64,000 nucleotides of DNA. Source: Piscicola geometra (Eukaryota; Annelida; Clitellata; Hirudinida; Piscicolidae). The DNA lies in assembly GCA_943735955.1 (NCBI GenBank), contig OX030961.1:770001-834000 (forward strand), read 5' to 3'. Made by a program: the position numbers and the translations under genes. Shown one piece after another: positions 40,980 through 64,000 of the stretch (position 1 is the first letter of the stretch; each line of letters opens with the position of its first letter). The notes beneath the pieces are model-generated. The model made no database searches, had not been told where the DNA came from, and worked only from the letters and a program-made list of their open reading frames with translations.

Positions 40980-43900
40980 ATGAAATTGATTATAGTTTAT
41001 TCTATGTTATTAATTGTATCAATTGTTAATAGTTTAAGTGACATCTGCCTTGAGGTTTTAATATTTAAAAAAAATTCACAATATGGTTTTTATTATAAAT
41101 TCAATTATAATTTATGTATCTAAAAAATGTGTTTATTATGGAAAAACAAATAATAATTGATAAACCTCTCATAAAATAGTTCTTGATGGCAAGTACTAAT
41201 TGCAAATGCTTGCAGGATGTCAAGTACCAGTACACCCAGTGTGACAGGAAGGGCAACCGCTGGAGAGTGGCGATTCCCTCGAAAGAAGTCTGTCTCCAAG
41301 AACTCAGTCCGTATGTCGTCAAAGGCAAGAAGTGCAGTGAGTATTAATTTTAATACTGATAATTGCTGGGTGAATAGGTAGATGAGTAAAATTGACAAAT
41401 ATTGTAATTGACAAATAATTATTTAACAAAGTGCGTTCATAATTTTGCTTTCAAAAAGTGATTTAACTAGATTATTTAGATGTTAATCAATTATAGTAGG
41501 AGGAGTTTAATGCTATGAATAAATTAAGGGCTTACAAAACAATTTAAACAGATGAGTCTGTAACGGGTGTAGATAACATAGGTGGCGATCCTGGGAGGGT
41601 TCTGGAGTAAAAACTCTCCCACTTTTTTTTAATGGGGGGATCTACAGTAAGGTGGACCCTCCCACTTTTATTCAATTTTTTTATTTAAAATTTTTGATAT
41701 GGGCATAATCATCAACCATTTTTTTTTTTGGTCTATACTGTTCACAGCCTGACAGACGCATGCCATGTTACAATGGTTCTAAGAACCATGGTTCTTATGC
41801 GCCAAGGCGCCACTCCACACGACGTGCACATCTCTCAACGCATACGTCGCAAACACCGCATCATATACACTAGGTATATGATAGTTCACGGTTGCTTCCA
41901 AGGATTCGAACAGGCAACCTTTAAGTTGCAAGTCCGACGTCTACCATCTAAGCCATCCCCGCTCCCCGAGCATAGCATGGATGTGTAGTTATATTGATGG
42001 CTGTCTAAAACAAAAATATTCTTTGCTTACTTAAATACTCCTTCACCTAGTTTTTTCATCACTATGGCGTAGGCGGGAATCCTGAGGGGGTCCTTGGTTC
42101 CACCTTTACAAGGACCCCCTCACTCTTTTAAAAATACACATTTCTCAACTCTGATTATGATACGAGCCTAATCGTCAACCATGGCATAAAAAAATGCTAA
42201 TACAGTAATACATTGTGAGTATGTATGGGCAGCGATGCTTAACATCTTAAAATGGACCCCCCTCAATTTTTAAAGTATAATAATTTCTTTAAATTTTTTT
42301 ATATAAAAAAACCATTGATATTGTGTTACTTATTTTGCATGGGCGATGTTCATAGGGGTTCTGAGGTCCACCTTAATATCGACTCTTTCAATTTTTCAGA
42401 TGAACCAAAGTTAATGACTTTCAAAAGGATTCAAACATTAACTAAAGTTGTGGTTAAATCAAACTAAAAGTTTCATATCACATGACTGCCAAAGCTTGGA
42501 ATCATTTGTTTCCATTCGTACTGCTGATGAAACAGTTGTAGAGGCTCGAGGCTTTTTTCAACAGGGCACTACTGCACTGGCCCTCAAGGTAGTTGTTTTG
42601 GTATTTTCACTTCTGGAACAGTTAAAAAAGTCGTTGCAGTCAGCAAGGGCCACGGTAAGTGGAATAATTGCAGCGACTGATTCAGTTGTGCAAGAACTGC
42701 GTCGCCTACGATCAGATGAACAGTTTAACGCCATTTTCAGAGATGTCACCAGTATGCTTTTGGCATATGATCTCGAGCCGATTGCTGTACCTCGGGTGCA
42801 AAAGCCGCCACAAAAGTATTGTGGGCTGGGCCCAGCTTATGTAGCAGCAACACCAGAGGAACATTATCGAGCAGCATTTTACGCTGCCATAGACATTGCA
42901 ATCATGCAACTCACAGAAAGTTTCAATCGAGATTCTCCTGGTTTGCGTTCAAACATGCAGCTGGAGACAATGTTGCTAACTGGTGAAGTGAACCATGATA
43001 TTTGCAAGCAGTATTGTGAGTTAAATGCAACAAATCTTTGTTCACAGTTAACTATGTTTAAAGACCAGAATGAATACAGAACTTTAGCACAAACTCAAAA
43101 AATAATGCCAGCTATGATCCCGGAAGTCAGACATCTGTTTCCTTAGGTTGAAAGATTGATCAGGTTGATGCTTGTGTGTCCAATAACGTCATGTACTGCA
43201 GAAAGATCTTTTAGTGCTTTGCGGCGTTTACCTAGTAAAACTAAAACAAGTGTGAAAATAGGGAAAACTGTAATTTAAAATATAAAAATGTTATAACTTT
43301 TTTTTACATGACATTTTTTGATATTTCACCTTGTTTCAGTATGACATATTGAAAGGGTCAAAATAAATGTTTCTTAAATCTTGTTCCTTAATAATCTCTG
43401 AGTCAAATAGTGAAAAATTGAAAATTGCTTTACAAATTTATATACAAATATATAGCGGCATGTTTTTTTTTGGACCCAGAGTGTATATTTATCTGTTTGT
43501 AAGACTGGCTAACGCAATAAATTGTTCATTTATTGTTAGAGTTTCATCAACAAAATGAATACAGATTTATTCCTGTTCTACCTAGTTAGTTATGCTATAT
43601 ATTTATGTTATATTGATATTCTAATTTTTAGTGACTTGACATTTATATATACTTCTATAATATGATGGCTGTAAAAACAGATTGTCCGGACATTTAATTA
43701 TTATTCATTTATTGTTACATTTGACACTATTGAAAGGAATTTCACTATTTTATTTGAACATAGGCATATGGATGCAAATCTGTGCAAATTAATTTTTATA
43801 TAAAAAGAACTGATAAATCGATTTAGTAAAATAATAAAAGGATTTGTGGAACGTTTTCTTTAGTCGTTCATAAAATAATTGAAAGAAATATATATAAAAA

Positions 43901-46900
43901 ATAAATTAATGGAATAATATAAGAATGACATTAATTGAATCTATAAGTACGCAATGCAAAACCTAATTATTTTTTCTCAAATCGCTAAAAATTTTAAAAG
44001 AAAGTTAAATTTTTCTTCAAACTCGTTAACCGTGGTTATATTTCTAGTGTTGGTTTTGATATTGGTAGGGTTGATGGCTAATTGTAATTGAATTTATATA
44101 GATGACCAATAATAAAAGGTATTAAAATCACTATTGTTTTTTTCAATTCGCTTAAAGTGGCAATAGAAAAGTATTTTTATTGAGTATCGACCTTTTTTTA
44201 ATGTTTAGTGATGCAAATACTAATAGTTGATACAAAATGAGTCAGCAATACAGCAAACAATACTAAATAGTATCGCTGGTACTGTGTGGGTCGATACCGA
44301 TTTATCGATTCCAACCCTGGGGAGGACCCTCCAAGATTTACCGCAGATCTCCGCCTCTGGTAGATAAAATGCGAAAGGCGAAATTTAACGTGGTTAAAAA
44401 GCGAAATTTTGGAAAATTATCCTATTTCAGCACTAACACTAACCCTCACTCTGCATAATGAAAGTTAAATGAATGGAAATTATTTCGCTTTTTAACGACG
44501 TTAAATTTCGCCGTTGGTCTTTGGCATTTTATCCACACCCGTCTGCAAGCCCTTCAGATGGAGCAATGCTTAAGGGCCATAGCTTCAAGTGCAACCAATG
44601 GCCTAGTAACCCATAGGCGCGAATTGAAAAATTTGTAGCATGAGTGGCCTAGAAGCCATTTGGGTCATAAGCAGGGGCGCAACCAGCAAAAAATGCTGGG
44701 GGGGGGCTCAACTTTAGTAAAAAAAATAATTGTTTAATCCATTTACCGCAGCTGTTGCGTTTTGCAACATCAATTTTTATATTTTTTTGCTGTTTTTATA
44801 CCGAGTTTTTTCACATATTTTGTACAATAAATTTTTCTTTTATAAGTTAAATTTCAACTTTTTAAATTTTATTATTTACAGTCTTTTATATCCTGTTCAC
44901 ATTTAACATTTATCAAAACAATCTTTCTTCGCTTAGATAATTGTTCAATTTTTTCGTTCGATTTTTAGTATGTTTATACAACTTTAGTTTTAATTTCGGT
45001 GCGAAAAGATAGTTAATACTTGAATTAATTTTTTTAATATTCAAAATAACTTGCAAAACGTTTTTCATGCTTTTAAAAATCAATGGTGCGTTTTCGCAAC
45101 TTCGACATAATATGATTTCATATGATTTTTAATAAGTCTAGTCATTATAATAATAATGAAATTATTATTTTAATGTTAATGTATTATGAAATTTGTAAAA
45201 TCAAAATTAAAAGTTGAATTTTGTAGATGAATGTTGATTTTTATATTTCGATAAAAAATTTCAAACCGCAAATGCTTCACACTTGAAGCTTTTATTGAAA
45301 AGAATATAGTTTTTTAACCTCTCATAGGTTGAATATAAAAATAAAATAAAGATAACATTCGACCACAGTGTCGTCTTTGAAACAGCACGACAGTTTATGA
45401 GGGCTGTTGTAATTCACGTTAAATAATTTGCTTTGTTGTAGTTAAAATAATTATTATTAATATTATAACAAAAAAAATAATTAGAAGTTTGAATTTTATC
45501 GAGCTATTCGCAATTGAAATTTATTTCTGTTTAATAAATGTGGTTTGAATCAATTTATTTGTGATTTCTTACTGTACATAAGTATGTCACACTTCCCGCT
45601 CACGTTGCGTTTTCGCAACATTTTGCCCCATCAAAACTTATGAAATAATTGTTTTTAATTTTGTTTGAGTTATTCTTATAACCATATAATGCAAGTCTAA
45701 ATGTAAAATTCATTTAAACTTTTTTTATCGAGTAGCGGCGGTCAATGGGCTAAATAAAAACTACCAATTATAATTGAAGAATTTAGATAGTTTATTAATG
45801 ATACAAAAGAAAAACTACAAACTAAGTTGCATAGTATTCTTAAAGTTACGTCATCATTTTTTAAACTAAGGTAAAAAGTAAAAAAATAAGTTTGATATGA
45901 GATCCTAAACAGTCTATAATTTTTTTTCAAATATTTAGTTTCAACTAAATTTTGATGTGTTCTCAGTTAAAAAATAATTTTTCGATCAGTTTGTGAAAAT
46001 CTTTTCATCATTTTATTTACTGGAAGAAGTGCAGTAGCGGTTTTGGTAGCAGATATTCTCAAACAAGCTTTGCAAACGACATCCAGATACAGTCGTCTTA
46101 AGATGAATTTTAATAAGCCGAAGTTTAGAAAATGTTCTTTCTGCATCTGATGAAGTAACTGGCAGAATCAGAGCAACATCGAGCATATAATGCAACTCGG
46201 GCTGAAGGCTTGTTGCTCAAAAGAATTCTTGCAGTTCGATACATGCAATGAGATCAGACTGATACGCACGTAAACTTGATGTGTTGATGTGATTTTGAGC
46301 TGTCTTTACCCAGTTTCAGCATCCTTTCCATGAAGGTTGGATAATGCTGAAAGCTCGAAAGTTATTTTGTCTACCTGATTTGTTTTTTATATACTGTGTC
46401 ATGGCTTGAAAAATTTACATATAAAAAGAGTAAAAATTTAAAAGTGTAGTTAAGGTCAAATGGTGCTCTATTTCTTCTCAGAATTTGTGACATTTTAGTG
46501 TTATTTTGGTGGGCTCTCTATGTTCTGTGTTTATATATGAAATGTTTCGTGAGATAAAGACCCGATAGCCATCCAGAGAAAATATCATTGTTCTATGGCA
46601 TATTGAAAAATTCATTACCCCCCCCCCCCCCACCAAAAAAACTCATCGATTTTCGAAAAATTGCGAGACCCTTTGAAAAGGTCTGGGGGAGGCTTGAGCC
46701 CCCCCCCCCCCAGCCCCCCCCTGGTTGCGCCACTGGTCATAGGCCACTATAATGAAGCTTGTCGTTATTATATCATGCAAAAGTACTCAAGTCCACTTTA
46801 AATTATATTTGTGAAATAATTTAAGAATCCTGATTTAGATTTTGAGTGTCCATCCGGTCATTACTTGGACATGAAGAATGAAACTTGTGAGGTGAGCAAA

Positions 46901-47071: not shown

Positions 47072-50000
47072 GCAGTTGTGTGCAGGGGGCACGTACTCGA
47101 TGGGAGGGGGCCTCAGACTGGATGACTGGAGCAGCATGCCAGCGGGCTTCAAGTCAAAGAGACAGGCACTCAAGGCGCTGAGAGACTTCGTGCCCAACGA
47201 AGAGAACTGTACAGGGTGTGTCTTTGTGGTGTACAGCCTGTGTGCATGTAGTGTGTGCATGTAGTGTGTGCATGTAGTGTGTGCATGTAGTGTGTGCATG
47301 TAGTGTGTGCATGTAGTGTGTGCATGTAGTGTGTGCATGTAGTGTGTGCATGTAGTGTGTGCATGTAGTGTGTGCATAAGTGTGTGCATGTAGTGTGTGC
47401 ATGTAGTGTGTGCATGTTGTGTGTGCATGTAGTGTGTGCATGTATTGTGTGCATGTAGTGTGTGCATGTAGTGTGTGCATGTAGTGTGTGCATAAGTGTG
47501 TGCATGTAGTGTGTGCATGTAGTGTGTGCATGTAGTGTGTACATGTAGTGTGTGCATGTAGTGTGTGCATGTAGTGTGTGCATGTAGTGTGTGCATGTAG
47601 TGTGTGCATAAGTGTGTGCATGTAGTGTGTGCATGTAGTGTGTGCATGTTGTGTGTGCATGTAGTGTGTGCATGTATTGTGTGCATGTAGTGTGTGCATG
47701 TAGTGTGTGCATGTAGTGTGTGTATGTAGTGTTTGCATGTAGTTTGTGCATGCAGTGTGTGCATGTAGTGTGTGCATGTAGTGTGTGTATGTAGTGTGTG
47801 CATGTAGTGTGTGCATGCAGTGTGTGCATGTAGTGTGTGCATGTAGTGTGTGCATGTAGTGTGTGCATGTAGTGTGTGCATGTAGTTTGTGCATGCAGTG
47901 TGTGCATGTAGTGTGTGCATGTAGTGTGTGCATGTAGTGTGTGCATGTTGTGTGTGCATGTAGTGTGTGCATGTAGTGTGTGCATGTAGTGTGTGCATGT
48001 AGTGTGTGCATGCAGTGCTATGCACACCACAACAACACCACACCACAACAACACCACACCATAACACCACCACACCACAACAACACCATAACACCACCAC
48101 AACAACACCACAACAACAACAACAACACAACAACAACACAACAACAACAACAACACCACACCATAACAACACCACACCACAACAACACCACACCATAACA
48201 CCACCACACCACAATAACACCACAACAACAACACACCAAAACAACACAACAACAACACCACAACACCACAACAACACAACAACACTACAACAACACAACA
48301 CCACAACAACACCACAACAACAACAACAACAACACTGAAACAACACAACACTGAAACACCACACCACAACAACACCACAACAACAACACCACAACAACAA
48401 CACCACAACAACAACAACAACAACACCACAACAACATCATCATCATCATCTCCTGGTTTATATTATTCAGACCAACTTTTCCTCTCCCGAGGGTGGGGCC
48501 TGTCTGAAAAGTCTCAACCTCTCTCTCCACTCCTTTCTATCATGGGCATCAGTGCTGCGTGCCCCCAGGTATTTGAGGTCTTTCTGCACTACCTCTTCCC
48601 ACGTCTTCTTTGGCCTGCCTGGTCGTTTCGTTCCAGAAACCTCAATTCTTCTAACCTTGTTGATCCATCCACCATCACGTTCCACGTGCCCAAACCACCT
48701 CATTCTTCTCGCTTACAGTACAGCACCAATATCCTGGATTCCCATCATTTTTTGTAGCTCATCTGAACTAATGAGATCTTTTGATTTGATGTTGCACATC
48801 CAACGGATCATGGCCCGGTCGTTGCGTTGAAGGCGGTTGATTGTTTCTGTGGTGACAGCCCAAGTCTCAGAGGCGTGTAACATTGTACTCCTCACGCATG
48901 AGGTGTACACACGACTTCTGGTTGGAAGTGGAAGGTGTCTGTTTGTCAGTAGAGGAAGAAGTTGACGAAATTTTCCCCACGCACACTTGCATCGGGTTAT
49001 GGCAGCATCCTCACAGCCTCCACCTGCAGACAGCATGTCACCTAAGTAGCAGAATTCAGGAACGACTTCAAGTTTGTCTTCATCAACAAGAACTTCCACA
49101 ATTGGTCTTCCGTCTATCGGTCGAGCTGTGCCTTGACAGCGGGTACACTTGTAATTTGGGTCTGAGCGGAGGGAGCCTTTAATGCCTGAGCATCTCTTGT
49201 GCACCCAGGATGAGCAACCGCTGCATAGAATGGAGTTTTTGCCCGTTCCTTTAAGGCAGACTGCACATGGGTACTTTCCCGATTTCTTGGTCAGCTCTAG
49301 ATTCGCACCAGAAACTAAAACTTTCGTTTTCCCCATATTAACTTTTAAGCCCTTTTTCTCCATTCCATTCTTCCATATCTTGACCTTAACAAGCAGCTCG
49401 TCCAGTGATTCAGCTATGGCTACAAAATCATCTGCGTACAACAGCTCCCATGGACATCCAGTGCGAAACTCTATGGATAACGCTTCTAGCACGATGATGA
49501 ATAATAGAGGGCCTAGGACCGAACCTTGATGCACCCCGACACCCACTTCGCGCTCGTCACTGAAAACTTCACCAACCCTTACCTTGCTTTTCACCTCCGA
49601 ATACATAGACTGCACCACTCTCACCAGCCACTCATCGATACCGAGTTTGCGTAATGCCCACCATATCACCTTCCTTGGGACACGGTCAAACGCCTTCTCA
49701 AGGTCGACGAAAGCTAAATAGAGTGGTTTGTTGGCAGCCCGGTACTTTTCATGGATCTGACGGATGATGAAGATGGCATCTGTTGTTCCACGCCCTGGCA
49801 TGAAGCCAAACTGCATCTCGTCAATCTTCGCACGGATCCTGATCAGGTCTTCTATCACGCGCTCCAGTACTTTGAGTACTTGCTCCATCAGCTTCAAGCC
49901 CCTGTAGTTGTTCCTGTCGAGAGCATCTCCTTTGCCCTTGTAGAGGTTCACAATGAAACTCTTTTTCCATTCAGTGGGGATCTTTCCTTCTGAGATGATG

Positions 50001-51627
50001 CACTCAGCAAGATCACGTACTAGGATGGCACCCTGTAGACCAGCAGACTTGAGCATCTCAGCAACAATGCCGGACGGACCAGCTGCCTTGCCATTACTCA
50101 TCTTTGCAATGGCTTTCATGATCATATCTGTGGTGATCGGCACACTTGGTCCTTCAACTGGGTCTTCCACCGACAGATTCTCAGGGCACCATGGGAACTC
50201 TAGGTTCAGCAGACGCTCATAGTGCTCCTTCCAGGCCTCTTTCTTTGAGTTCTCACTCAATGACATTTCGCCAGCATCATTTCTTACTGGCAGCTCTCCA
50301 ATTATGTCTTGATTTTCTCGTCGCATCTGTTGAGCGAGACGAAAGACTTCTGCTGTTTTCGGATTGATGGAACTGAGAACTTTTTTCTCCGCAGCACACC
50401 TAGCGATCTGGACAGCTTGTTTGCAAGCACGTTTTGCAGCGTTGTAATTTGAACGGCTGCCACCATCTTTCCATGCCTTGAAACATCTGCGTTTTTCAGC
50501 CACGGCACTTTCTACAGACTCATTCCACCACCACGTCTGCTTCTTCCACCGGTGCGTTGAGGTAACGCCACACACCTGCTTCGCTGTATCTAGCAGTTTG
50601 TCTTTCAGTGAAAGCCAGAGTTCATCCACTGAATTGGAGCATGTCTTGACTTGTGTGTTGGCCGCGAAAACTTCCCCGAAGTCTGCCTGGGTTGCTGCGT
50701 TACGGAGTTTCCACACTTTGATGCTAGGCGCAAACTTTCGCTTAGTTGTCGGTGGCTTGTGGTGCTTGAAGTCCGCAACAACCAGTTTATGCTGGGCAGC
50801 ACATTCCTCATTCTGAAAGACTTTCACATTTGAAACATGTTTTCTGAAAGCTCGTCGGAACAGAATGAAGTCAATCTGGCTTTGGACCGGTCCTGATCGG
50901 TAGGTCACCAGGTGGCGAGGCTTCTTCTTGAACCAAGAGTTTCCGACTAGTAGCTCGTTTGCCACCGCGAACTCCAAGACTCTTTCGCCTTCAGTGTTTC
51001 GCTCACCTATTGCGTGCCCGCCAAGGACCTCTCTGTAACCACTGGAATCACAGCCAATATGTCCGTTCCAGTCCCCGCATACAAATAGTTCTTCTGTGGT
51101 TGGTATGATGGCGATAGCCGACTGTAGCCTTTGGTAGAACTTGTCTTTTTCTGCCAAACTGAGTCCAGATTGAGGTGCGTATACGCACGCAAAAGCAAAT
51201 ATCGTCTTGCCTATTATCATTCGCATGGTGATGACTCGATCTGAGACCCGGTCTACTGTGATTATCTTCTCCCACCACAACAACAACAACACCACAACAA
51301 CACAACACCACAACAACACAACACCACAACACCACAACAACAACAACACAACACAACAACAACAACACCACAACAACAACAACACAACAACACCACAACA
51401 ACAACAACACTGAAACAACACCACAACAACAACAACACTGAAACAACACCACAACAACACCACACTGAAACAACAACAACAACAACAACACTGAAACAAC
51501 ACCACAACAACACCACACTGAAACACACAACAACAACAACAACAACACTGAAGCAACACCACAACAACACCACACTGAAACAACAACAACAACAACACTG
51601 AAACAACACCACAACAACACCACACTG

Positions 51628-51659
<32 letters not shown>

Positions 51660-52376
51660 CTGAAACAACACCACAACAACACCACACTGAAACAACAACA
51701 ACAACAACAACAACACTGAAACAACACCACAACAACACCACAACAACAACACCACAACAACACAACACCACAACACCACAACAACAACAACACAACACAA
51801 CAATAACAACACCACAACAACAACAACACAACACCACAACAACAACAACACAACAACACCACAACAACAACAACACTGAAACAACACCACAACAACAACA
51901 ACAACACTGAAACAACACCACAACAACACCACACTGAAACAACAACAACAACAACACTGAAACAACACCACAACAACACCACACTGAAACAACAACAACA
52001 ACAACAACACTGAAACAACACCACAACAACACCACACTGAAACAACAACAACAACAACAACACTGAAACAACACCACAACAACACCACACTGAAACAACA
52101 ACAACAACAACAACACTGAAACAACACCACAACAACACCACACTGAAACAACAACAACAACAACAACACTGAAACAACACCACAACAACACCACACTGAA
52201 ACAACAACAACAACAACACTGAAACAACACCACAACAACACCACATTGAAACAACAACAACAACAACAACACTGAAACAACACCACAACAACACCACACT
52301 GAAACAACAACAACACTGAAACAAAAACAACACTGAAACGACAACAACACTGAAACAACACCACAACACAACACTG

Positions 52377-52423
<47 letters not shown>

Positions 52424-52448
52424 CTGAAACAACACCACAACAACACTG

Positions 52449-52483
<35 letters not shown>

Positions 52484-53396
52484 CTGAAACAACAACAACA
52501 CTGAAACAACACCACAACACCACAACAACAACACTGAAACAACAACAACAACAACAACAACAACACTGAAACAACAACAACAACACTGAAACAACAACAA
52601 CACCACAACAACAACAACAACAACAACACCACCGCAGCGAGTGGAGGGCGGCGGGTAAATTCTTGGTGGTAAACGACTCATCCTGCATGACCTCCCTTGA
52701 GGTGATGATGATGATGATGAGGATGATGATGATGATGAGAAGGATGATGATGATTAGGATGATGAGGGTGTTGATAATGATGATGAAGATGATGAGAAGG
52801 ATGATGATGATTAGGATGATGAGGGTGTTGATGAGCGTGTTGATGAAGATGATGATGAAGATGATGATGGTGATGATGATGATGATGAAGGTAGTGATGA
52901 TGATGATGAAGGTGCTGATGATGATGATGAAGGTGGTGATGATGATGGTGATGATGATGATGATTACCTCTTGCAAGGTGGAATACGACTTTGTGAAGGA
53001 GGGCTGGGTGGCGTTCGAGTATGAGAACGTCGATGAAGACGTCATGTTCGCCTTTGAGGTGGTTCTGATGGTGGTGATGATGATAATGATGGTGGTGGTG
53101 GTGGTGGTGGTGGTGGTGATGACGATGATGGTGGTGGTAGTGGTGGTGATGATGATGGTGGTGGTAGTGGTGGTGGTGGTGGTAGTGGTGGTGATGATGG
53201 TTGTGGTGGTGATTATGGTTGTATTGGTAGTGATGATGGTGGTGATGATGATGGCAGTGAAGGTGGTGATGATGATGATGATGGTACTGCAGATAGAGAA
53301 CGAGCGGTGCGAGGTGGAGGGGAGTGGAGGACGCAACCTGAGGAGCACTGAAGGCTTCAGCAGGAGGCAGTTCAGAGTGCAAGCTGGAAGCAACAA
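40980..53396 (+). CDS. ELAPOR: ELAPOR (EIG121/KIAA1324 family), N-terminal seven exons
   Basis: ELAPOR proteins are type I membrane glycoproteins of the trans-Golgi and endolysosomal system with cysteine-rich ectodomains, linked to autophagy. Exons with agreeing phases: 40980-41054 (MKLIIVYSMLLIVSIVNS signal peptide, then DICLE), 41216-41336 (DVKYQYTQCDRKGNRWRVAI), 46839-46891 (FECPSGHYLDMKNETCE), 47076-47215 (LCAGGTYSMGGGLRLDDW and MPAGF), 52638-52701 (EWRAAGKFLVVNDSSCMTSL), 52978-53058 (YDFVKEGWVAFEYENVDED) and 53293-53396 (IENERCEVEG to FRVQAGSN). Family landmarks are Y-Y-T-CD-GxRWRVA, the CxF-C-SG-YL-MK-C block, GTYS-G and the G-V-FEY-Y-D segment. About 212 residues are in the window; the rest, including the mannose-6-phosphate-receptor-like and transmembrane regions, lies to the right. 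The exon 1 donor (GAG/GTTTTA) is weak, so exon 1 is less certain than the others. Introns carry hAT, LINE and large tandem arrays. Confidence 0.92.
41722..41962 (-). mobile_element. tRNA-derived SINE inside hAT-E
   Basis: Same family as 32300-32578, about 85-90 percent identical. T-rich left end, body with GACAGACGCATGCCATGTTA and GGTTCTTATGCGCCAAGGCG, and a tRNA-like right end (minus strand: GCGGGGATGGCTTAGATGG, then GTTCGAATCC). It breaks the hAT subterminal block at TCATCAACCAT. Confidence 0.85.
42445..43225 (+). pseudogene. hAT-E transposase, internally deleted
   Basis: It begins at the WLNQTKSFISHDCQ segment, then jumps directly to SLESFVSIRTADETVVEARG, so the first catalytic aspartate (VVVDGTQDC in hAT-A) and the QTYDSAANMSG region are lost. 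The rest is open: TALALKVVVLVFSLLEQLKK, SVVQELRRLRSDEQFNA, PPQKYCGLGPAYVAATPEEH, VRHLFP, then a stop at 43144, and a decayed dimerisation end to about 43225. It cannot encode an active enzyme. Confidence 0.88.
44672..46735 (-). mobile_element. hAT-F transposon of a second family, 2.06 kb
   Basis: Ends CAGGGGCGCAACCAG (44672) and CTGGTTGCGCCACTG (ending 46735), each followed inward by a long C or G run and GCTCAA/TTGAGC. The flanking duplication is GTCATAAG (44664-44671) and GTCATAGG (46736-46743), one mismatch. The minus-strand frame 46195-46013 encodes a hAT dimerisation motif, LPVTSSDAERTFSKLRLIK; the rest of the transposase is decayed. It lies in ELAPOR intron 2, 103 bp upstream of exon 3. 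Confidence 0.88.
46965..47073. repeat. (AC)n microsatellite up to an ELAPOR acceptor
   Basis: CACACA repeats with AAAC interruptions running into the acceptor CGCAG of ELAPOR exon 4 at 47076. It therefore takes the place of the polypyrimidine tract, with alternating CA instead. Confidence 0.93.
47235..48012. repeat. 13-bp minisatellite with TGCATG in ELAPOR intron 4
   Basis: About 60 copies of TGTGTGCATGTAG with variants (CATAAG, CATGTTG, CATGCAG). Blocks of variants repeat: the order CATAAG, CATGTTG, CATGTATTG appears at 47370-47450 and again at 47605-47690, showing internal duplication of about 240 bp. The core TGCATG is on the ELAPOR sense strand. Confidence 0.95.
48015..48430. repeat. 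CAACAACACCAC-type repeat left of the LINE
   Basis: Irregular mix of CAACAA, CACCACA and ACACTGAAACA units. The same units continue on the far side of the RTE LINE (51276-52636). Confidence 0.93.
48440..51275 (-). pseudogene. RTE-type LINE: truncated endonuclease, RT with PHD-like finger
   Basis: Non-LTR retrotransposon in ELAPOR intron 4, antisense to the gene. Minus-strand reading: endonuclease from mid-domain (VYAPQSGLSLAEKDKFYQRL, FVCGDWNGHIG, QSQIDFILFRR); RT with NGKAAGPSGIVAEMLK, GFMPGRGTTDAIFIIRQ, YLAFVDLEKAFDRVP, HQGSVLGPLLF and LLYADDFVAIA; then an inserted C4HC3-like finger (YPCAVCLKGTGKNSILCSGC to YKCTRC) and an RT tail (YTSCVRSTMLHASETWA). A TAA at 48715-48713 breaks the frame, which resumes MRWFGHVERDGGW and GRPKKTWEEV to a stop at 48467. 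The 5' part, including the first endonuclease motifs, is missing, as usual for truncated insertion. The 3' end is a short (GAT)n tail (48436-48450), typical of RTE elements. Nearly intact where present, so probably recent. Confidence 0.93.
51276..52636. repeat. CAACAACACTGAAACAACACC-type minisatellite right of the LINE
   Basis: About 1.36 kb of irregular units around AACAACAACAACACTGAAAC and AACACCACAACAACACCACA. It runs directly into the acceptor CGCAG of ELAPOR exon 5 (52638). Because only A, C and a few T and G occur, it is open on the minus strand and fuses artificially to the LINE frame. Confidence 0.95.
52702..52965. repeat. (GAT)n-rich ELAPOR intron 5
   Basis: The whole 276-bp intron between exons 5 and 6 is GATGATGAAGATGATGAGG-type sequence, with blocks such as GATGATGAGGGTGTTGATGA duplicated. 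Confidence 0.93.
53059..53285. repeat. (GGT/GAT)n-rich ELAPOR intron 6
   Basis: Intron between exons 6 and 7, made of GGTGGTGGT and GATGATGGT triplets with few interruptions, ending in the acceptor TACTGCAG. Confidence 0.93.
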
Positions 53397-53404
53397 GTGC
53401 TGTG

Positions 53405-56400
53405 GTGTGGTGGTGCATGGAGGTGCATGGTGGTGCATGGTGGTGCATGGGGGTGCATGGAGGTGCATGGTGGTGCATGGAGGTGCATGGTGGTGCATGG
53501 AGGTGCATGGAGGTGCATGGAGGTGCATGGTGGTGCATGGAGGTGCATGGTGGTGCATGGAGGTGCATGGAGGTGCATGGAGGTGCATGGTGGTGCATGG
53601 GGGGGAATGGTGGTGCATGGAGGTGCATGGTGGTGCATGGTGGTGTATGGAGGTGCATGGTGGTGCATGGAGGTGCATGGAGGTGCATGGTGGTGCATGG
53701 GGGGGCATGGAGGTGCATGGAGGTGCATGGAGATGCATGGTGGTGCATGGGGGTGCATGGAGATGCATGGGGGTGCATGGTGGTGCATGGAGGTGCATGG
53801 AGGTGCATGGAGATGCATGGAGGTGCATGGGGGTGCATGGAGGTGCATGGAGGTGCATGGAGGTGCATGGTGGTGCATGGAGGTGCATGGTGGTGCATGG
53901 GGGGGCATGGAGGTGCATGGGGGGGCATGGTGGTGCATGGGGGTGCATGGGGGTGTATGGAGGTGCATGGGGGTGCATGTGGTGCATGGGGGTGCATGGG
54001 GGTGCATGGTGGTGCATGGGGGTGCATGGAGGTGCATGGAGGTGCATGGTGGTGCATGGGGGTGCATGGTGGTGCATGGAGGTGCATGGAGGTGCATGGT
54101 GGTGCATGGGGGTGCATGGTGGTGCATGGGGGGGAATGGTGGTGCATGGAGGTGCATGGTGGTGCATGGTGGTGTATGGGGGTGCATGGAGGTGCATGGT
54201 GGTGCATGGTGGTGCATGGTGGTGCATGGGGGGGCATGGAGGTGCATGGTGGTGCATGGGGGTGCATGGAGGTGCATGGAGGTGCATGGGGGTGCATGTA
54301 GGTGCATGGAGGTGCATGGAGATGCATGGTGGTGCATGGGGGTGCATGGGGGTGCATGGAGATGCATGGGGGTGCATGGTGGTGCATGGAGGTGCATGGG
54401 GGGGAATGGAGGTGCATGGTGGTGCATGGGGGGGAATTGAGGTGCATGGGGGTGCATGGAGGTGCATGGAGGTGCATGGGGGTGCATGGAGGTGCATGGA
54501 GGTGCATGGTGGTGCATGGTGAGGCATGGGGGTGCATGGTGGTGCATGGGGGTGCATGGTGGTGCATGGGGGTGCATGGAGGTGCATGGTGGTGCATGGT
54601 GGTGCATGGGGGGGAATGGTGGTGCATGGAGGTGCATGGGGGTGCATGGTGGTGCATGGGGGTGCATGGGGGTGCATGGTGGTGCATGGGGGTGCATGGG
54701 GGTGCATGGAGGTGCATGGGGGTGCATGGAGGTGCATGGAGGTGCATGGAGATGCATGGTGGTGCATGGAGGGGCATGGAGGTGCATGGTGGTGCATGGG
54801 GGGGCATGGAGGTGCATGGGGGGGCATTGTGGTGCATGGGGGTGTATGGAGGTGCATGGTGGTGCATGGTGGTGCATGGGGGTGCATGGTGGTGCATGGA
54901 GGTGCATGGAGGTGCATGGTGGTGCATGGAGGGGCATGGAGGTGCATGGTGGTGCATGGGGGGGCATGGAGGTACATGGGGGGGCATGGTGGTGCATGGG
55001 GGTGTATGGAGGTGCATGATGGTGCATGGTGGTGCATGGGGGTGCATGGGGGTGCATGGTGGTGCATGGGGGTGCATGGAGGTGCATGGAGGTGCATGGA
55101 GGTGCATGGTGGTGCATGGGGGTGCATGGTGGTGCATGGTGGTGCATGGTGGTGCATGGGGGTGCATGGTGGTGCATGGGGGTGCATGGAGGTGCATGGA
55201 GGTGCATGGTGGTGCATGGAGGGGCATGGAGGTGCATGGGGGGGCATGGTGGTGCATGGGGGGGCATGGTGGTGCATGGGGGTGCATGGAGGTGCATGGG
55301 GTTGCTTGGTGGTGCATGGAGGTGCATGGTGGTGCTTGGTGGTGCATGGAGGTGTATGGAGGTGCATGGTGGTGCATGGTGGTGCATGGGGGTGCATGGT
55401 GGTGCATGGGGGTGCATGGAGGTGCATGGTGGTGCATGGGGGTGCATGGAGGTGCATGGTGGTGCATGGGGGTGCATGGGGGTGCATGGAGGTGCATGGG
55501 GGGGCATGGTGGTGCATGGGGGTGCATGGAGGTGCATGGGGGTGCTTGGTGGTGCATGGAGGTGCATGGTGGTGCATGGGGGTGCATGGTGGTGCATGGG
55601 GGTGCATGGAGGTGCATGGTGGTGCATGGGGGTGCATGGTGGGGCATGGGGATGCATGGAGGTGCATGGAGGTGCATGGAGGTGCATGGGGGTGCATTGT
55701 GGTGCATGGGGGGGAATGGTGGTGCATGGTGGTGCATGGGGGTGCATGGTGGTGCATGGGGGTGCATGGAGGTGCATGGTGGTGCATGGTGGTGCATGGG
55801 GGGGAATGGTGGTGCATGGAGGTGCATGGGGGTGCATGGTGGTGCATGGGGGTGCATGGGGGTGCATGGAGGTGCATGGAGGTGCATGGTGGTGCATGGG
55901 GGTGCATGGTGGTGCATGGTGGTGCATGGTGGTGCATGGGGGTGCATGGGGGTGCATGGTGGTGCATGGGGGTGCATGGAGGTGCATGGAGGTGCATGGT
56001 GGTGCATGGAGGGGCATGGAGGTGCATGGTGGTGCATGGGGGTGCATGGAGGTGCATGGTGGTGCATGGGGGTGCATGGGGGTGCATGGAGGTGCATGGG
56101 GGGGCATGGTGGTGCATGGGGGTGCATGGAGGTGCATGGGGGTGCTTGGTGGTGCATGGAGGCGCATGGTGGTGCATGGGGGTGCATGGTGGTGCATGGG
56201 GGTGCATGGAGGTGCATGGTGGTGCATGGGGGTGCATGGTGGGGCATGGGGATGCATGGAGGTGCATGGAGGTGCATGGAGGTGCATGGGGGTGCATTGT
56301 GGTGCATGGGGGTGCATGGTGGTGCATGGGGGTGCATGGTGGTGCATGGGGGTGCATGGAGGTGCATGGTGGTGCATGGTGGTGCATGGTGGTGCATGTA

Positions 56401-59400
56401 GGTGCATGGGGGTGCATGGTGGTGCATGGGGGTGCATGGAGGTGCATGGGGGTGCATGGGGGTGCATGGTGGTGCATGGGGGTGCATTGGGGTGCATGGT
56501 GGTGCATGGTGGTGCATGGTGGTGCATGGGGGTGCATGGGGGTGCATGGAGGTGCATGGGGGGGCATGGTGGTGCATGGTGGTGCATGGGGGTGCATGGA
56601 GGTGCATGGTGGTGCATGGTGGTGCATGGGGGGGAATGGTGGTGCATGGAGGTGCATGGGGGTGCATGGGGGTGCATGGGGGTGCATGTTGGTGCATGGA
56701 GGTGCATGGTGGTGCATGGGGGTGCATGGTGGTGCATGGGGGTGCATGGAGGTGCATGGTGGTGCATGGGGGTGCATGGTGGGGCATGGGGATGCATGGA
56801 GGTGCATGGAGGTGCATGGGGGTGCATTGTGGTGCATGGGGGGGAATGGTGGTGCATGGTGGTGCATGGGGGTGCATGGGGGGGCATGGTGGTGCATGGG
56901 GGTGCATGGAGGTGCATGGGGTTGCTTGGTGGTGCATGGAGGTGCATGGTGGTGCTTGGTGGTGCATGGAGGTGTATGGAGGTGCATTGTGGTGCATGGT
57001 GGTGCATGGGGGTGCATGGTGGTGCATGGGGGTGCATGGGGGTGCATGGTGGTGCATGGGGGTGCATGGAGGTGCATGGAGGTGCATGGTGGTGCATGGA
57101 GGGGCATGGAGGTGCATGGTGGTGCATGGGGGTGCATGGGGGTGCATGGTGGTGCATGGGGGTGCATGGAGGTGCATGGAGGTGCATGGTGGTGCATGGA
57201 GGGGCATGGAGGTGCATGGTGGTGCATGGGGGGGCATGGAGGTGCATGGGGGGGCATGGTGGTGCATGGGGGGCATGGTGGTGCATGGGGGTGCATGGGG
57301 GTGCATGGTGGTGCATGGGGGTGCATGGAGGTGCATGGTGGTGCATGGGGGTGCATGGAGGTGCATGGTGGTGCATGGGGGTGCATGGGGGTGCTTGGTG
57401 GTGCATGGAGGTGTATGGAGGTGCATGGTGGTGCATGGGGGTGCATGGGGGTGCATGGTGGTGCATGGGGGTGCATGGAGGTGCATGGAGGTGCATGGTG
57501 GTGCATGGAGGGGCATGGAGGTGCATGGTGGTGCATGGGGGGGCATGGAGGTGCATGGGGGGGCATGGTGGTGCATGGGGGTGCATGGTGGTGCATGGGG
57601 GGGAATGGTGGTGCATGGAGGTGCATGGTGGTGCATGGTGGTGTATGGGGGTGCATGGAGGTGCATGGTGGTGCATGGTGGTGCATGGTGGTGCATGGGG
57701 GGGCATGGAGGTGCATGGTGGTGCATGGGGGTGCATGGAGGTGCATGGAGGTGCATGGGGGTGCATGTAGGTGCATGGAGGTGCATGGAGATGCATGGTG
57801 GTGCATGGGGGTGCATGGGGGTGCATGGAGATGCATGGGGGTGCATGGTGGTGCATGGAGGTGCATGGGGGGGAATGGAGGTGCATGGTGGTGCATGGGG
57901 GGGAATTGAGGTGCATGGGGGTGCATGGAGGTGCATGGAGGTGCATGGGGGTGCATGGAGGTGCATGGAGGTGCATGGTGGTGCATGGTGAGGCATGGGG
58001 GTGCATGGTGGTGCATGGGGGTGCATGGTGGTGCATGGGGGTGCATGGAGGTGCATGGTGGTGCATGGTGGTGCATGGGGGGGAATGGTGGTGCATAGAG
58101 GTGCATGGGGGTGCATGGTGGTGCATGGGGGTGCATGGGGGTGCATGGTGGTGCATGGGGGTGCATGGGGGTGCATGGAGGTGCATGGGGGTGCATGGAG
58201 GTGCATGGAGGTGCATGGAGATGCATGGTGGTGCATGGAGGGGCATGGAGGTGCATGGTGGTGCATGGGGGGGCATGGAGGTGCATGGGGGGGCATTGTG
58301 GTGCATGGGGGTGTATGGAGGTGCATGGTGGTGCATGGTGGTGCATGGGGGTGCATGGTGGTGCATGGAGGTGCATGGAGGTGCATGGTGGTGCATGGAG
58401 GGGCATGGAGGTGCATGGTGGTGCATGGGGGGGCATGGAGGTACATGGGGGGGCATGGTGGTGCATGGGGGTGTATGGAGGTGCATGATGGTGCATGGTG
58501 GTGCATGGGGGTGCATGGGGGTGCATGGTGGTGCATGGGGGTGCATGGAGGTGCATGGAGGTGCATGGAGGTGCATGGTGGTGCATGGGGGTGCATGGTG
58601 GTGCATGGTGGTGCATGGTGGTGCATGGGGGTGCATGGTGGTGCATGGGGGTGCATGGAGGTGCATGGAGGTGCATGGTGGTGCATGGAGGGGCATGGAG
58701 GTGCATGGGGGGGCATGGTGGTGCATGGGGGGGCATGGTGGTGCATGGGGGTGCATGGAGGTGCATGGGGTTGCTTGGTGGTGCATGGAGGTGCATGGTG
58801 GTGCTTGGTGGTGCATGGAGGTGTATGGAGGTGCATGGTGGTGCATGGTGGTGCATGGGGGTGCATGGTGGTGCATGGGGGTGCATGGAGGTGCATGGTG
58901 GTGCATGGGGGTGCATGGAGGTGCATGGTGGTGCATGGGGGTGCATGGGGGTGCATGGAGGTGCATGGGGGGGCATGGTGGTGCATGGGGGTGCATGGAG
59001 GTGCATGGGGGTGCTTGGTGGTGCATGGAGGTGCATGGTGGTGCATGGGGGTGCATGGTGGTGCATGGGGGTGCATGGAGGTGCATGGTGGTGCATGGGG
59101 GTGCATGGTGGGGCATGGGGATGCATGGAGGTGCATGGAGGTGCATGGAGGTGCATGGGGGTGCATTGTGGTGCATGGGGGGGAATGGTGGTGCATGGTG
59201 GTGCATGGGGGTGCATGGTGGTGCATGGGGGTGCATGGAGGTGCATGGTGGTGCATGGTGGTGCATGGGGGGGAATGGTGGTGCATGGAGGTGCATGGGG
59301 GTGCATGGTGGTGCATGGGGGTGCATGGGGGTGCATGGAGGTGCATGGAGGTGCATGGTGGTGCATGGGGGTGCATGGTGGTGCATGGTGGTGCATGGTG

Positions 59401-62400
59401 GTGCATGGGGGTGCATGGGGGTGCATGGTGGTGCATGGGGGTGCATGGAGGTGCATGGAGGTGCATGGTGGTGCATGGAGGGGCATGGAGGTGCATGGTG
59501 GTGCATGGGGGTGCATGGAGGTGCATGGTGGTGCATGGGGGTGCATGGGGGTGCATGGAGGTGCATGGGGGGGCATGGTGGTGCATGGGGGTGCATGGAG
59601 GTGCATGGGGGTGCTTGGTGGTGCATGGAGGCGCATGGTGGTGCATGGGGGTGCATGGTGGTGCATGGGGGTGCATGGAGGTGCATGGTGGTGCATGGGG
59701 GTGCATGGTGGGGCATGGGGATGCATGGAGGTGCATGGAGGTGCATGGAGGTGCATGGGGGTGCATTGTGGTGCATGGGGGTGCATGGTGGTGCATGGGG
59801 GTGCATGGTGGTGCATGGGGGTGCATGGAGGTGCATGGTGGTGCATGGTGGTGCATGGTGGTGCATGTAGGTGCATGGGGGTGCATGGTGGTGCATGGGG
59901 GTGCATGGAGGTGCATGGGGGTGCATGGGGGTGCATGGTGGTGCATGGGGGTGCATTGGGGTGCATGGTGGTGCATGGGGGTGCATGGTGGTGCATGGTG
60001 GTGCATGGGGGTGCATGGGGGTGCATGGAGGTGCATGGGGGGGCATGGTGGTGCATGGTGGTGCATGGGGGTGCATGGAGGTGCATGGTGGTGCATGGTG
60101 GTGCATGGGGGGGAATGGTGGTGCATGGAGGTGCATGGGGGTGCATGGGGGTGCATGGGGGTGCATGGTGGTGCATGGAGGTGCATGGTGGTGCATGGGG
60201 GTGCATGGTGGTGCATGGGGGTGCATGGAGGTGCATGGTGGTGCATGGGGGTGCATGGTGGGGCATGGGGATGCATGGAGGTGCATGGAGGTGCATGGGG
60301 GTGCATTGTGGTGCATGGGGGGGAATGGTGGTGCATGGTGGTGCATGGGGGTGCATGGGGGGGCATGGTGGTGCATGGGGGTGCATGGAGGTGCATGGGG
60401 TTGCTTGGTGGTGCATGGAGGTGCATGGTGGTGCTTGGTGGTGCATGGAGGTGTATGGAGGTGCATGGTGGTGCATGGTGGTGCATGGGGGTGCATGGTG
60501 GTGCATGGGGGTGCATGGGGGTGCATGGTGGTGCATGGGGGTGCATGGAGGTGCATGGAGGTGCATGGTGGTGCATGGAGGGGCATGGAGGTGCATGGTG
60601 GTGCATGGGGGGGCATGGAGGTGCATGGGGGGGCATGGTGGTGCATGGGGGGGCATGGTGGTGCATGGGGGTGCATGGGGGTGCATGGTGGTGCATGGGG
60701 GTGCATGGAGGTGCATGGTGGTGCATGGGGGTGCATGGAGGTGCATGGTGGTGCATGGGGGTGCATGGTGGTGCATGGGGGTGCATGGAGGTGCATGGAG
60801 GTGCATGGTGGTGCATGGAGGGGCATGGAGGTGCATGGTGGTGCATGGGGGTGCATGGGGGTGCATGGTGGTGCATGGGGGTGCATGGAGGTGCATGGAG
60901 GTGCATGGTGGTGCATGGAGGGGCATGGAGGTGCATGGTGGTGCATGGGGGGGCATGGAGGTGCATGGGGGGGCATGGTGGTGCATGGGGGGGCATGGTG
61001 GTGCATGGGGGTGCATGGGGGTGCATGGTGGTGCATGGGGGTGCATGGAGGTGCATGGTGGTGCATGGGGGTGCATGGAGGTGCATGGGGGTGCTTGGTG
61101 GTGCATGGAGGTGTATGGAGGTGCATGGTGGTGCATGGGGGTGCATGGGGGTGCATGGTGGTGCATGGGGGTGCATGGAGGTGCATGGAGGTGCATGGTG
61201 GTGCATGGAGGGGCATGGAGGTGCATGGTGGTGCATGGGGGGGCATGGAGGTGCATGGGGGGGCATGGTGGTGCATGGGGGGGCATGGTGGTGCATGGGG
61301 GTGCATGGAGGTGCATGGGGTTGCTTGGTGGTGCATGGAGGTGCATGGGGGTGCATGGAGGTGCATGGAGGTGCATGGTGGTGCATGGAGGGGCATGAAG
61401 GTGCATGGTGGTGCATGGGGGGGCATGGAGGTGCATGGGGGGGCATGGTGGTGCATGGGGGGGCATGGTGGTGCATGGGGGTGCATGGGGGTGCATGGTG
61501 GTGCATGGGGGTGCATGGAGGTGCATGGTGGTGCATGGGGGTGCATGGAGGTGCATGGTGGTGCATGGGGGTGCATGGTGGTGCATGGGGGTGCATGGAG
61601 GTGCATGGAGGTGCATGGTGGTGCATGGAGGGGCATGGTGGTGCATGGGGGGGCATGGAGGTGCATGGGGGGGCATGGTGGTGCATGGGGGTGCATGGGG
61701 GTGCATGGTGGTGCATGGGGGTGCATGGAGGTGCATGGTGGTGCATGGGGGTGCATGGAGGTGCATGGTGGTGCATGGGGGTGCATGGGGGTGCTTGGTG
61801 GTGCATGGAGGTGTATGGAGGTGCATGGTGGTGCATGGGGGTGCATGGGGGTGCATGGTGGTGCATGGGGGTGCATGGAGGTGCATGGAGGTGCATGGTG
61901 GTGCATGGAGGGGCATGGAGGTGCATGGTGGTGCATGGGGGGGCATGGAGGTGCATGGGGGGGCATGGTGGTGCATGGGGGGGCATGGTGGTGCATGGGG
62001 GTGCATGGAGGTGCATGGGGTTGCTTGGTGGTGCATGGAGGTGCATGGTGGTGCTTGGTGGTGCATGGAGGTGTATGGAGGTGCATGGTGGTGCATGGTG
62101 GTGCATGGGGGTGCATGGTGGTGCATGGGGGTGCATGGAGGTGCATGGTGGTGCATGGGGGTGCATGGAGGTGCATGGTGGTGCATGGGGGTGCATGGGG
62201 GTGCATGGAGGTGCATGGGGGGGCATGGTGGTGCATGGGGGTGCATGGAGGTGCATGGGGGTGCTTGGTGGTGCATGGAGGTGCATGGTGGTGCATGGGG
62301 GTGCATGGTGGTGCATGGGGGTGCATGGAGGTGCATGGTGGTGCATGGGGGTGCATGGTGGGGCATGGGGATGCATGGAGGTGCATGGAGGTGCATGGGG

Positions 62401-64000
62401 GTGCATTGTGGTGCATGGGGGGGAATGGTGGTGCATGGTGGTGCATGGGGGTGCATGGGGGTGCATGGTGGTGCATGGGGGTGCATGGAGGTGCATGGTG
62501 GTGCATGGTGGTGCATGGGGGGGAATGGTGGTGCATGGAGGTGCATGGGGGTGCATGGGGGTGCATGGGGGTGCATGGTGGTGCATGGAGGTGCATGGGG
62601 GTGCATGGTGGTGCATGGGGGTGCATTGGGGTGCATGGTGGTGCATGGGGGTGCATGGGGGTGCATGGTGGTGCATGGTGGTGCATGGGGGGGCATGGAG
62701 GTGCATGGTGGTGCATGGGGGTGCATGGAGGTGCATGGGGGTGCTTGGTGGTGCATGGAGGTGTATGGAGGTGCATGGTGGTGCATGGGGGTGCATGGGG
62801 GTGCATGGTGGTGCATGGGGGTGCATGGAGGTGCATGGTGGTGCATGGGGGTGCATGGTGGTGCATGGGGGTGCATGGAGGTGCATGGTGGTGCATGGGG
62901 GTGCTTGGTGGTGCATGGAGGTGCATGAAGGTGCATGGGGGGGCATGGTGGTGCATGGGGGTGCATGGAGGTGCATGGGGGTGCTTGGTGGTGCATGGAG
63001 GTGCATGGTGGTGCTTGGTGGTGCATGGAGGTGCATGGAGGTGTATGGAGGTGCATGGTGGTGCATGGTGGTGCATGGGGGTGCATGGTGGTGCATGGGG
63101 GTGCATGGAGGTGCCTGGTGGTGCATGGGGGTGCATGGAGGTGCATGGTGGTGCATGGGGGTGCATGGTGGTGCATGGGGGTGCATGGTGGTGCATGGGG
63201 GTGCATGGAGGTGCATGGGGGTGCTTGGTGGTGCATGGAGGTGCATGGTGGTGCATGGGGGTGCATGGTGGTGCATGGGGGTGCATGGAGGTGCATGGTG
63301 GTGCATGGGGGTGCATGGTGGGGCATGGGGATGCATGGAGGTGCATGGAGGTGCATGGAGGTGCATGGGGGTGCATTGTGGTGCATGGGGGGGAATGGTG
63401 GTGCATGGTGGTGCATGGGGGTGCATGGTGGTGCATGGGGGTGCATGGTGGTGCATGGAGGGGCATGGAGGTGCATGGTGGTGCATGGGGGGGCATGGAG
63501 GTGCATGGGGGGGCATGGTGGTGCATGGGGGGGCATGGTGGTGCATGGGGGTGCATGGAGGTGCATGGGGTTGCTTGGTGGTGCATGGAGGTGCATGGTG
63601 GTGCTTGGTGGTGCATGGAGGTGTATGGAGGTGCATGGTGGTGCATGGTGGTGCATGGGGGTGCATGGTGGTGCATGGGGGTGCATGGAGGTGCATGGTG
63701 GTGCATGGGGGTGCATGGAGGTGCATGGTGGTGCATGGGGGTGCATGGGGGTGCATGGAGGTGCATGGGGGGGCATGGTGGTGCATGGGGGTGCATGGAG
63801 GTGCATGGGGGTGCTTGGTGGTGCATGGAGGTGCATGGTGGTGCATGGGGGTGCATGGTGGTGCATGGGGGTGCATGGAGGTGCATGGTGGTGCATGGGG
63901 GTGCATGGTGGGGCATGGGGATGCATGGAGGTGCATGGAGGTGCATGGGGGTGCATTGTGGTGCATGGGGGGGAATGGTGGTGCATGGTGGTGCATGGGG
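53405..64000. repeat. 10-bp satellite (GGTGCATGGN)n, more than 10.5 kb
   Basis: It begins within about ten bases of the ELAPOR exon 7 donor (53397) and continues past the right edge: roughly 1060 copies. The tenth base is A, T or G; rarer units are GGGGCATGG, GGGGAATGG, GGTGTATGG, GGTGCTTGG, GATGCATGG and GGTGCATTG. It makes open frames of thousands of codons on both strands because no frame of the unit contains a stop; 10 bp is not a multiple of three, so all frames read the same 10-residue cycle. Not protein-coding. Almost every unit has TGCATG on the ELAPOR sense strand. Confidence 0.98.
54096..59950. repeat. Higher-order duplication inside the 10-bp satellite
   Basis: The variant order from about 54096 to 56480 reappears from about 57565 to 59950 at an offset of 3469 bp, nearly base for base (one change noted: GCATGGAG versus GCATAGAG at about 58096). 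A shorter recurring block with GGTTGCTTGGTGGTGC and GGTGTATGGAGG appears near 55300, 56930, 58770, 60400, 61320, 62020 and 63565. Confidence 0.85.

Follow-up and report, generated by a model that had tools for sequence, protein, structure and literature searches.

A 17-kb TGCATG minisatellite filling an intron of an ELAPOR gene in Piscicola geometra

TGCATG is the word bound by Fox-1, a regulator of splicing. Ordinary intronic minisatellites are built from short units, with unit variants, local re-duplication and unit-length steps. Both subjects meet in a stretch of 64,000 nucleotides from Piscicola geometra (the window; contig OX030961.1, here G000:C7:770001-834000 of a 171-Mb, 66-contig genome), in which an intron of an ELAPOR gene contains a 10-bp minisatellite with TGCATG in its unit. 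Three described systems come closest. A mammalian deep-intronic RbFox cluster is defined by a minimum of four (T)GCATG per 500 nt, and few genes have clusters with eight sites or more (PMC12435732). PNCTR and other short-tandem-repeat-enriched RNAs are tandem repeat RNAs with hundreds of copies of the motif of one protein; PNCTR itself is a Pol I transcript that binds PTBP1 and sits in the perinucleolar compartment (PMC6224606). The CNBP CCTG expansion of myotonic dystrophy type 2 (DM2) is a very long intronic repeat, with a pathologically expanded four-base unit that reaches about 11,000 copies, and its CCUG RNA binds rbFOX1 (PMC5964235).

In our assessment, the locus is probably a minisatellite that expanded passively until it filled its intron, with Fox-1 sites that are incidental, and the evidence favours a passive repeat of this kind over an evolved regulatory switch. 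The locus is ordinary in kind (a minisatellite) and extreme in degree (17 kb, a whole intron, 1,415 motif copies). Within the window, Tandem Repeats Finder (TRF) calls a single array of the unit GGTGCATGGN on the + strand at 53408-63998. When the contig is read for a further 10 kb (L009), with the window numbering continued past 64,000 (window-equivalent coordinates), unit parsing and motif counting follow the array from 53408 through 64000 to window-equivalent 70359, giving a full length of 16,952 bp. The parse places 1,695 ten-base units in register, with four 1-base deletions, in agreement with the unit given in the original prediction. There are 51 unit types, in varied order along the array, and the variable base (N in GGTGCATGGN) is G in 626 units, T in 603, A in 465 and C in 1. 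TGCATG is found on the + strand 889 times at 53405-64000 and 1,415 times over the full array (83.5 per kb, with 1,533 GCATG), and never in antisense (CATGCA on the + strand), so the array is larger than the roughly one thousand sense sites that had been claimed. Base composition is strongly asymmetric (G 54%, C 10%, GC skew +0.70), and there are 6 CpG. Local re-duplication is evident: 128 of 140 repeated 60-unit words recur at a shift of 347 units, and one 3.47-kb shift carries long runs of units that are identical one for one. Short head-to-tail units, unit variants and local re-duplication are the marks of a minisatellite. Among 15 fully readable 10-kb comparison loci, which were not picked for the GGTGCATGG array, 14 have between 0 and 8 TGCATG on each strand; L035, the one outlier, has 38 and 6, from another TGCATG array. 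The count in the 10-bp array is far above chance for scattered sites, yet any word in a tandem unit becomes abundant.

The host intron (+ strand, GT..AG ends) extends from 53397 to window-equivalent 70425 (53397-64000 in the window), measures 17,029 bp, and is 99.5% tandem repeat. Its donor reads ...AGCAACAA then GTGCTG, the array begins after 11 intron bases, and the first TGCATG is at 53414, much as expected from the earlier statement that the array starts right after a splice donor. The acceptor is GAACAG followed by A, with the next exon starting at window-equivalent 70426. The exon upstream (53293-53396, + strand, 104 nt; IENERC...QAGSN plus the start of a K codon, identified by similarity) and the exon downstream (89 nt) are joined in phase by a lysine codon divided between them (QAGSN-K-LVWRV). 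The joined 344-residue peptide matches PF23032 (GBD_ELAPOR1-like_3rd; E 3e-15, 56.8 bits, cut-off 27), and the match, at residues 70-196, spans both TGCATG-bearing introns (the second is described below). The in-phase join and the domain match place the array wholly inside an intron of an identified gene, which we assign to ELAPOR, in sense orientation, in line with the original prediction. An earlier, shorter exon join scored 24.8 bits, under the cut-off, and a PF23032 profile search of the genome, exon by exon, gave no match. A 218-aa exon join, searched against a protein database, gave no hit at E 0.001, full-length relatives being outside the length limits of the database.

ELAPOR-like pieces lie in collinear order on the + strand between 41216 and window-equivalent 72480, and weaker ones reach about 89 kb; the query was approximate, and several single pieces are weak. 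Similarity and the exon join define exons at 52978-53058 (VEYDFVKEGWVAFEYENVDEDVMFAFE) and 52638-52701 (EWRAAGKFLVVNDSSCMTSLE), and GT/AG edges and homology define one at 47076-47215 (LCAGGTYSMGGG...NEENCTG). Farther upstream are a piece at 46823-46891 (CPSGHYLDMKNETC; E 0.24, weak alone and collinear with the others, left edge uncertain) and an exon at 41216-41336 (DVKYQYTQCDRKGNRWRVAIP...KKC; E 1.1e-5), directly followed by a GTGAGT donor; all of these are on the + strand. Inside the gene, window-equivalent 75001-82500 consists of 7,500 N, which may or may not be an assembly gap.

It should be considered whether the length or placement of the array is an artefact of assembly. Assemblers handle long arrays of low complexity poorly, and N stretches lie nearby (the 7,500 N from window-equivalent 75001). 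However, the 51 unit types in varied order do not resemble a collapsed perfect repeat, and the unique exons on the two sides of the array are in phase with each other; we regard such an error as extremely improbable.

On the minus strand, from 53408 to window-equivalent 70357, one frame is free of stops for 5,648 codons. A coding repeat was considered (7-9 stops per frame on the + strand; 0, 1 and 1 on the − strand, where frame 0 is the open one) and rejected, because open frames follow from a 10-bp unit that lacks stops and because the array sits between in-phase exons.

Comparison with the described systems shows resemblance to each and identity with none. The array shares with the mammalian RbFox clusters an intronic position, sense orientation, at least four motifs per 500 nt, and a GU-rich and G-rich context. 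On the sense strand, the window part is one cluster of 973 GCATG, and the following 10 kb hold 560 more. Those clusters have four or more sites, whereas here a single uniform array of 1,415 sites is known from sequence, and no constraint was found (PMC12435732). As in PNCTR, the motif of a single protein is repeated hundreds of times in tandem, and one RNA would present a multivalent motif array, as a sponge does, provided the intron is transcribed; unlike PNCTR, this repeat belongs to the intron of a protein gene and is known from its DNA sequence (PMC6224606). The DM2 expansion shares great intronic length and the rbFOX1/MBNL motif logic, and differs in that the unit here has 10 bases and a canonical GCAUG core and occurs in an ordinary assembly (PMC5964235). 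By analogy, the nearest sponge would be PNCTR and the nearest intronic Fox-binding repeat DM2 CCUG, and membership in neither is claimed. Compared with ordinary intronic minisatellites, the kind of element is the same, and the difference is that the array takes up 99.5% of its intron and that four other introns of the gene are at least 92% repeat. A literature search on RBFOX, tandem repeats, introns and sponges returned no paper on a GCAUG array among the matches listed, some of them judged by title.

The neighbouring introns are important for the passive reading. Based on GT/AG exon edges, the tandem-repeat fractions of the nine ELAPOR introns found are 0.041, 0.592, 0.475, 0.949, 0.962, 0.995, 0.922, 0.973 and 0.461. 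Tandem repeat thus makes up at least 92% of five of nine introns, that is, of four of the eight besides the array intron. These four (52702-52977, 53059-53292, and window-equivalent 70515-70936 and 71087-71596) are filled to 92-97%, nearly flush with the splice sites. Of the 18 ELAPOR splice sites, 12 have a repeat within 20 bp and 8 have one within 10 bp (random positions outside the gene core have a repeat within 20 bp in 18.7% of cases and within 10 bp in 17%). The repeats differ from intron to intron (TGA, GGT/GAT, TAC, GGAGGG, ACA, GT). On the + strand, TRF places a TGA triplet array at 52703-52964 (95% of intron 52702-52977), a GGT/GAT triplet array at 53059-53283 (96% of intron 53059-53292), and an ACA-type array at 51277-52628, at the 3′ end of intron 47216-52637. 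A 389-bp TAC array fills the intron at window-equivalent 70515-70936; its sense strand is C-rich, with a skew opposite to that of the 10-bp array. The introns of the two Fox-1-type genes described below are far less repetitive (0 to 0.39), and some repeats still abut a splice site there. ELAPOR is an extreme case within a repeat-rich genome.

If the Fox-1 sites were maintained, the motif might be expected to vary less than its surroundings. The mean share of units that vary is 3.3% for the six TGCATG columns, 2.1% for the GCATG core, and 1.2% for the three flanking G columns, and the number of distinct substitution types per column is similar (1 to 3) across the unit. The fraction of intact TGCATG stays between 0.80 and 0.88 along the array. 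Within-array column variation therefore gave no sign of motif upkeep by selection, and this is a weak test because arrays homogenise. The claim of an extreme Fox-1 cluster holds in part: the published cluster definition is exceeded many times, but upkeep of the motif is unsupported, its columns varying more than the flanking Gs.

We suggest that, in this tandem-repeat-rich genome, a minisatellite grew inside the ELAPOR intron through slippage during replication and through unequal exchange, until it came to occupy nearly all of it. The 1,415 TGCATG would then be copies of one motif in a founder unit, rather than individually selected sites. If ELAPOR is transcribed, the array would be co-transcribed and then spliced out. 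Most likely, the net effect would be that of a long spacer, probably variable in length, to which Fox-1 and other RNA-binding proteins would bind incidentally and with weak to moderate strength. If so, the locus shows how fully a minisatellite can occupy an intron of a conserved gene, nearly flush with the splice sites, and motif counts in repeats would be no evidence of regulation.

The original prediction had named the absence of a Fox-1 homologue as a point that would count against it, and two homologues were found, so that one prerequisite of a clustered RbFox target, the protein, is represented in the species. Two loci on contig C2, each with four exon pieces, encode RNA recognition motifs (RRMs) of Fox-1 type, identified by RRM similarity (G000:C2:13236127-13236234 on the − strand and G000:C2:7838625-7838726 on the + strand). 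For both RRMs, the closest solved structures are of human RBFOX1 (E 1.4e-36 and 1.4e-30), with 59/80 and 50/80 residues identical. At 15 RRM positions (RNA contacts partly from PMC9114321; the residue numbering is ours), gene A keeps 15 of 15 RBFOX1 residues and gene B 13 of 15, with the changes F158Y and R194K. Given this resemblance to RBFOX1, it is likely that the species has proteins able to bind GCAUG.

The quality of the sites is a separate question. Nanomolar binding has been reported for UGCAUGU, with GCAUG as the core (PMC9911399), and UGCAUGY has been given as the recognised word (PMC5964235). In the 10-bp array, the base after TGCATG is G at 1,398 of 1,415 sites and a pyrimidine at 12. 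A second array, with the 13-bp unit TGTGTGCATGTAG and overlooked before, was found by TRF at 47239-48017 (+ strand), starting 23 bases into ELAPOR intron 47216-52637, and all 54 of its TGCATG are followed by a pyrimidine (T 50, C 4). Because nearly all sites of the 10-bp array precede G rather than the pyrimidine of UGCAUGY, they are probably good sites without being optimal; the best are those of the 13-bp array, which makes it the better Fox-1 candidate of the two. Since the preferred heptamer marks one of the two TGCATG arrays of this gene and not the other, both the passive and the Fox-1 readings become testable.

In the Fox-1 reading, the array is a working platform, loaded with Fox-1 on nascent ELAPOR pre-mRNA together with hnRNP M- and H-type partners, that steers the splicing of the flanking exons or titrates Fox-1. 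The two Fox-1-type genes, with their RBFOX1-like RRMs and mostly retained contact positions, are in its favour, as is a sequence context like that of the mammalian clusters (PMC12435732): hnRNP M-type GU-rich pentamers reach 111 per kb in the array (13 in window positions 1-40000) and hnRNP H-type G-rich pentamers 126 per kb (2 in the same positions). No hnRNP C-type (U-rich) pentamers were counted in the array. On the other side are the lack of constraint on the motif columns, the predicted pairing of the motif (below), and the 1,403 of 1,415 sites without a following pyrimidine, for which the penalty may be mild given the GCAUG core (PMC9911399). Furthermore, skipping either flanking exon (104 or 89 nt) would shift the frame, and both encode one conserved domain, so regulated exon skipping is not expected. 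In the mammalian study, effect size did not rise with the number of sites per cluster (PMC12435732). We therefore consider a working platform unlikely. If it were real, the cluster would be far denser than those of that study (PMC12435732), and would test whether, in a normal genome, repeat RNA can act as a buffer for a splicing factor.

UGCA is self-complementary, and the GUGCAU of one unit can pair with that of another through two G-U and four Watson-Crick pairs. The sense RNA of 56001-56300 folds to -117.4 kcal/mol, compared with -89.86 (standard deviation 3.51) for dinucleotide shuffles (z -7.85; none of 200 shuffles as stable), and the antisense RNA has a z of -1.95. As DNA, the GGTGCATGGN unit folds better than all 30 letter permutations. 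The median probability that a whole UGCAUG is unpaired is 0.006 over 700 sites of the array; for 58 lone sites it is 0.018, a gap that is partly one of composition because the lone sites are in more AT-rich sequence. A clustered RbFox target would be expected to have accessible motifs, and in silico folding did not return them here. A long GUGCAU hairpin is likely, but not proven: the array RNA is predicted to form a long imperfect hairpin, with six-pair GUGCAU/GUGCAU stems and four-base G-rich loops. Such a hairpin would hinder the RRM, which reads single-stranded RNA. Most UGCAUG would then be paired, limiting Fox-1 loading to a small open fraction or to a co-transcriptional phase. RNA structure had been raised as an aside in the original prediction, and is in part the better lead, although its source would be the self-complementary GUGCAU and not the GG pairs: a G-quadruplex (G4) as the main structure was rejected, since permitting G4 lowered the energy in only 2 of 7 windows.

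A structured repeat RNA might also act by itself, if a long GUGCAU hairpin drew RNA-binding proteins, among them muscleblind-like ones, together in nuclear foci, by analogy with DM2 CCUG. Besides the predicted sense-strand hairpin, this is suggested by 1,502 YGC triplets in the array (YGC is a word of MBNL; PMC5964235), by a muscleblind-like zinc-finger match at G000:C6:3131171-3131362 (−) (E 4.5e-19; the query was approximate), and by the fact that the rbFOX1-binding CCUG expansion is intronic as well (PMC5964235). However, YGCY occurs only 51 times in the array, some fold controls (below) had no special stability, and a toxic RNA in a normal genome ought to be either tolerated or removed by selection; such a role seems quite improbable to us. 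A related proposal, which starts from the genome-wide excess of TGCATG tandem repeats (below), is that the two ELAPOR arrays (13-bp, 54 UGCAUGY; 17-kb, 1,415 UGCAUGG as described) together form a Fox-1-binding repeat RNA that is natural and not pathological, its hairpin serving as a platform on which Fox-1 would be stored or titrated upon ELAPOR transcription; we judge this, too, to be quite unlikely.

At the DNA level, transcription of 17 kb whose non-template strand is rich in G may give rise to R-loops or G-quadruplexes, slowing the polymerase or driving expansion. The base composition and skew noted above fit this, as do 670 two-quartet G4 motifs in the array. However, three-quartet motifs number 2, the G4 option altered the RNA energy in few windows, and the neighbouring array-filled introns have both skew signs (e.g., -0.90 and +0.91), so the orientation of skew follows no rule. 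Such an effect is very improbable in our view.

Several results weigh against the passive minisatellite reading, or against the fold that it includes. For the fold, 7 of 200 permutations of the unit columns are at least as stable, mononucleotide shuffles of 200-nt windows are about equally stable, and the idea that hairpin-forming units grow longer as a general rule was rejected (length versus foldedness over 102 arrays, Spearman -0.036, p 0.72). Two ELAPOR introns hold sense-strand TGCATG arrays of unrelated units. Genome-wide, the pattern of three TGCATG spaced by short gaps has 22,689 matches, 11,274 on the forward strand and 11,415 on the reverse (matches overlap one another, so these are counts of matches and not of arrays), and the 10-bp array supplies roughly 1,400 of the forward matches at most. 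Two composition-matched hexamers, out of six randomly drawn control words, gave 818 and 1,011 (TGTCAG, 1,829 in total) and 1,138 and 1,831 (GTCATG, 2,969 in total), such that TGCATG clusters are 7 to 12 times commoner. The reversed word GTACGT (198 and 157 matches) holds a CpG and is hence a poor control. This over-representation is the one result that plain slippage alone leaves unexplained. In sampled arrays, TGCATG ranks second of 120 CpG-free permutations by triple matches (84, including the ELAPOR 13-bp array), and is still second without that array (32, of which 30 are from L035). By another count, TGCATG is present in 2 of 98 sampled minisatellites (parts of the 10-bp array having been dropped), and 181 of 2,080 hexamers are commoner. 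Whether it is a specially favoured word in sampled arrays is thus equivocal.

The same abundance affects the regulatory reading, given that finding a TGCATG repeat in an intron is less surprising when such repeats are common genome-wide and on both strands. Together with the four repeat-filled introns among the other eight, the predicted pairing, and the G that follows most sites, it weakens the proposed control of splicing. Other TGCATG minisatellites are at L035:3669-4124 (11 bp), L025:4974-5512 (17 bp) and L026:4837-5205 (10 and 26 bp), and a 20-bp TGCATGGAGGAATGAATGGA array, known from the match list alone, covers over 1.6 kb at G000:C1:529140-530821.

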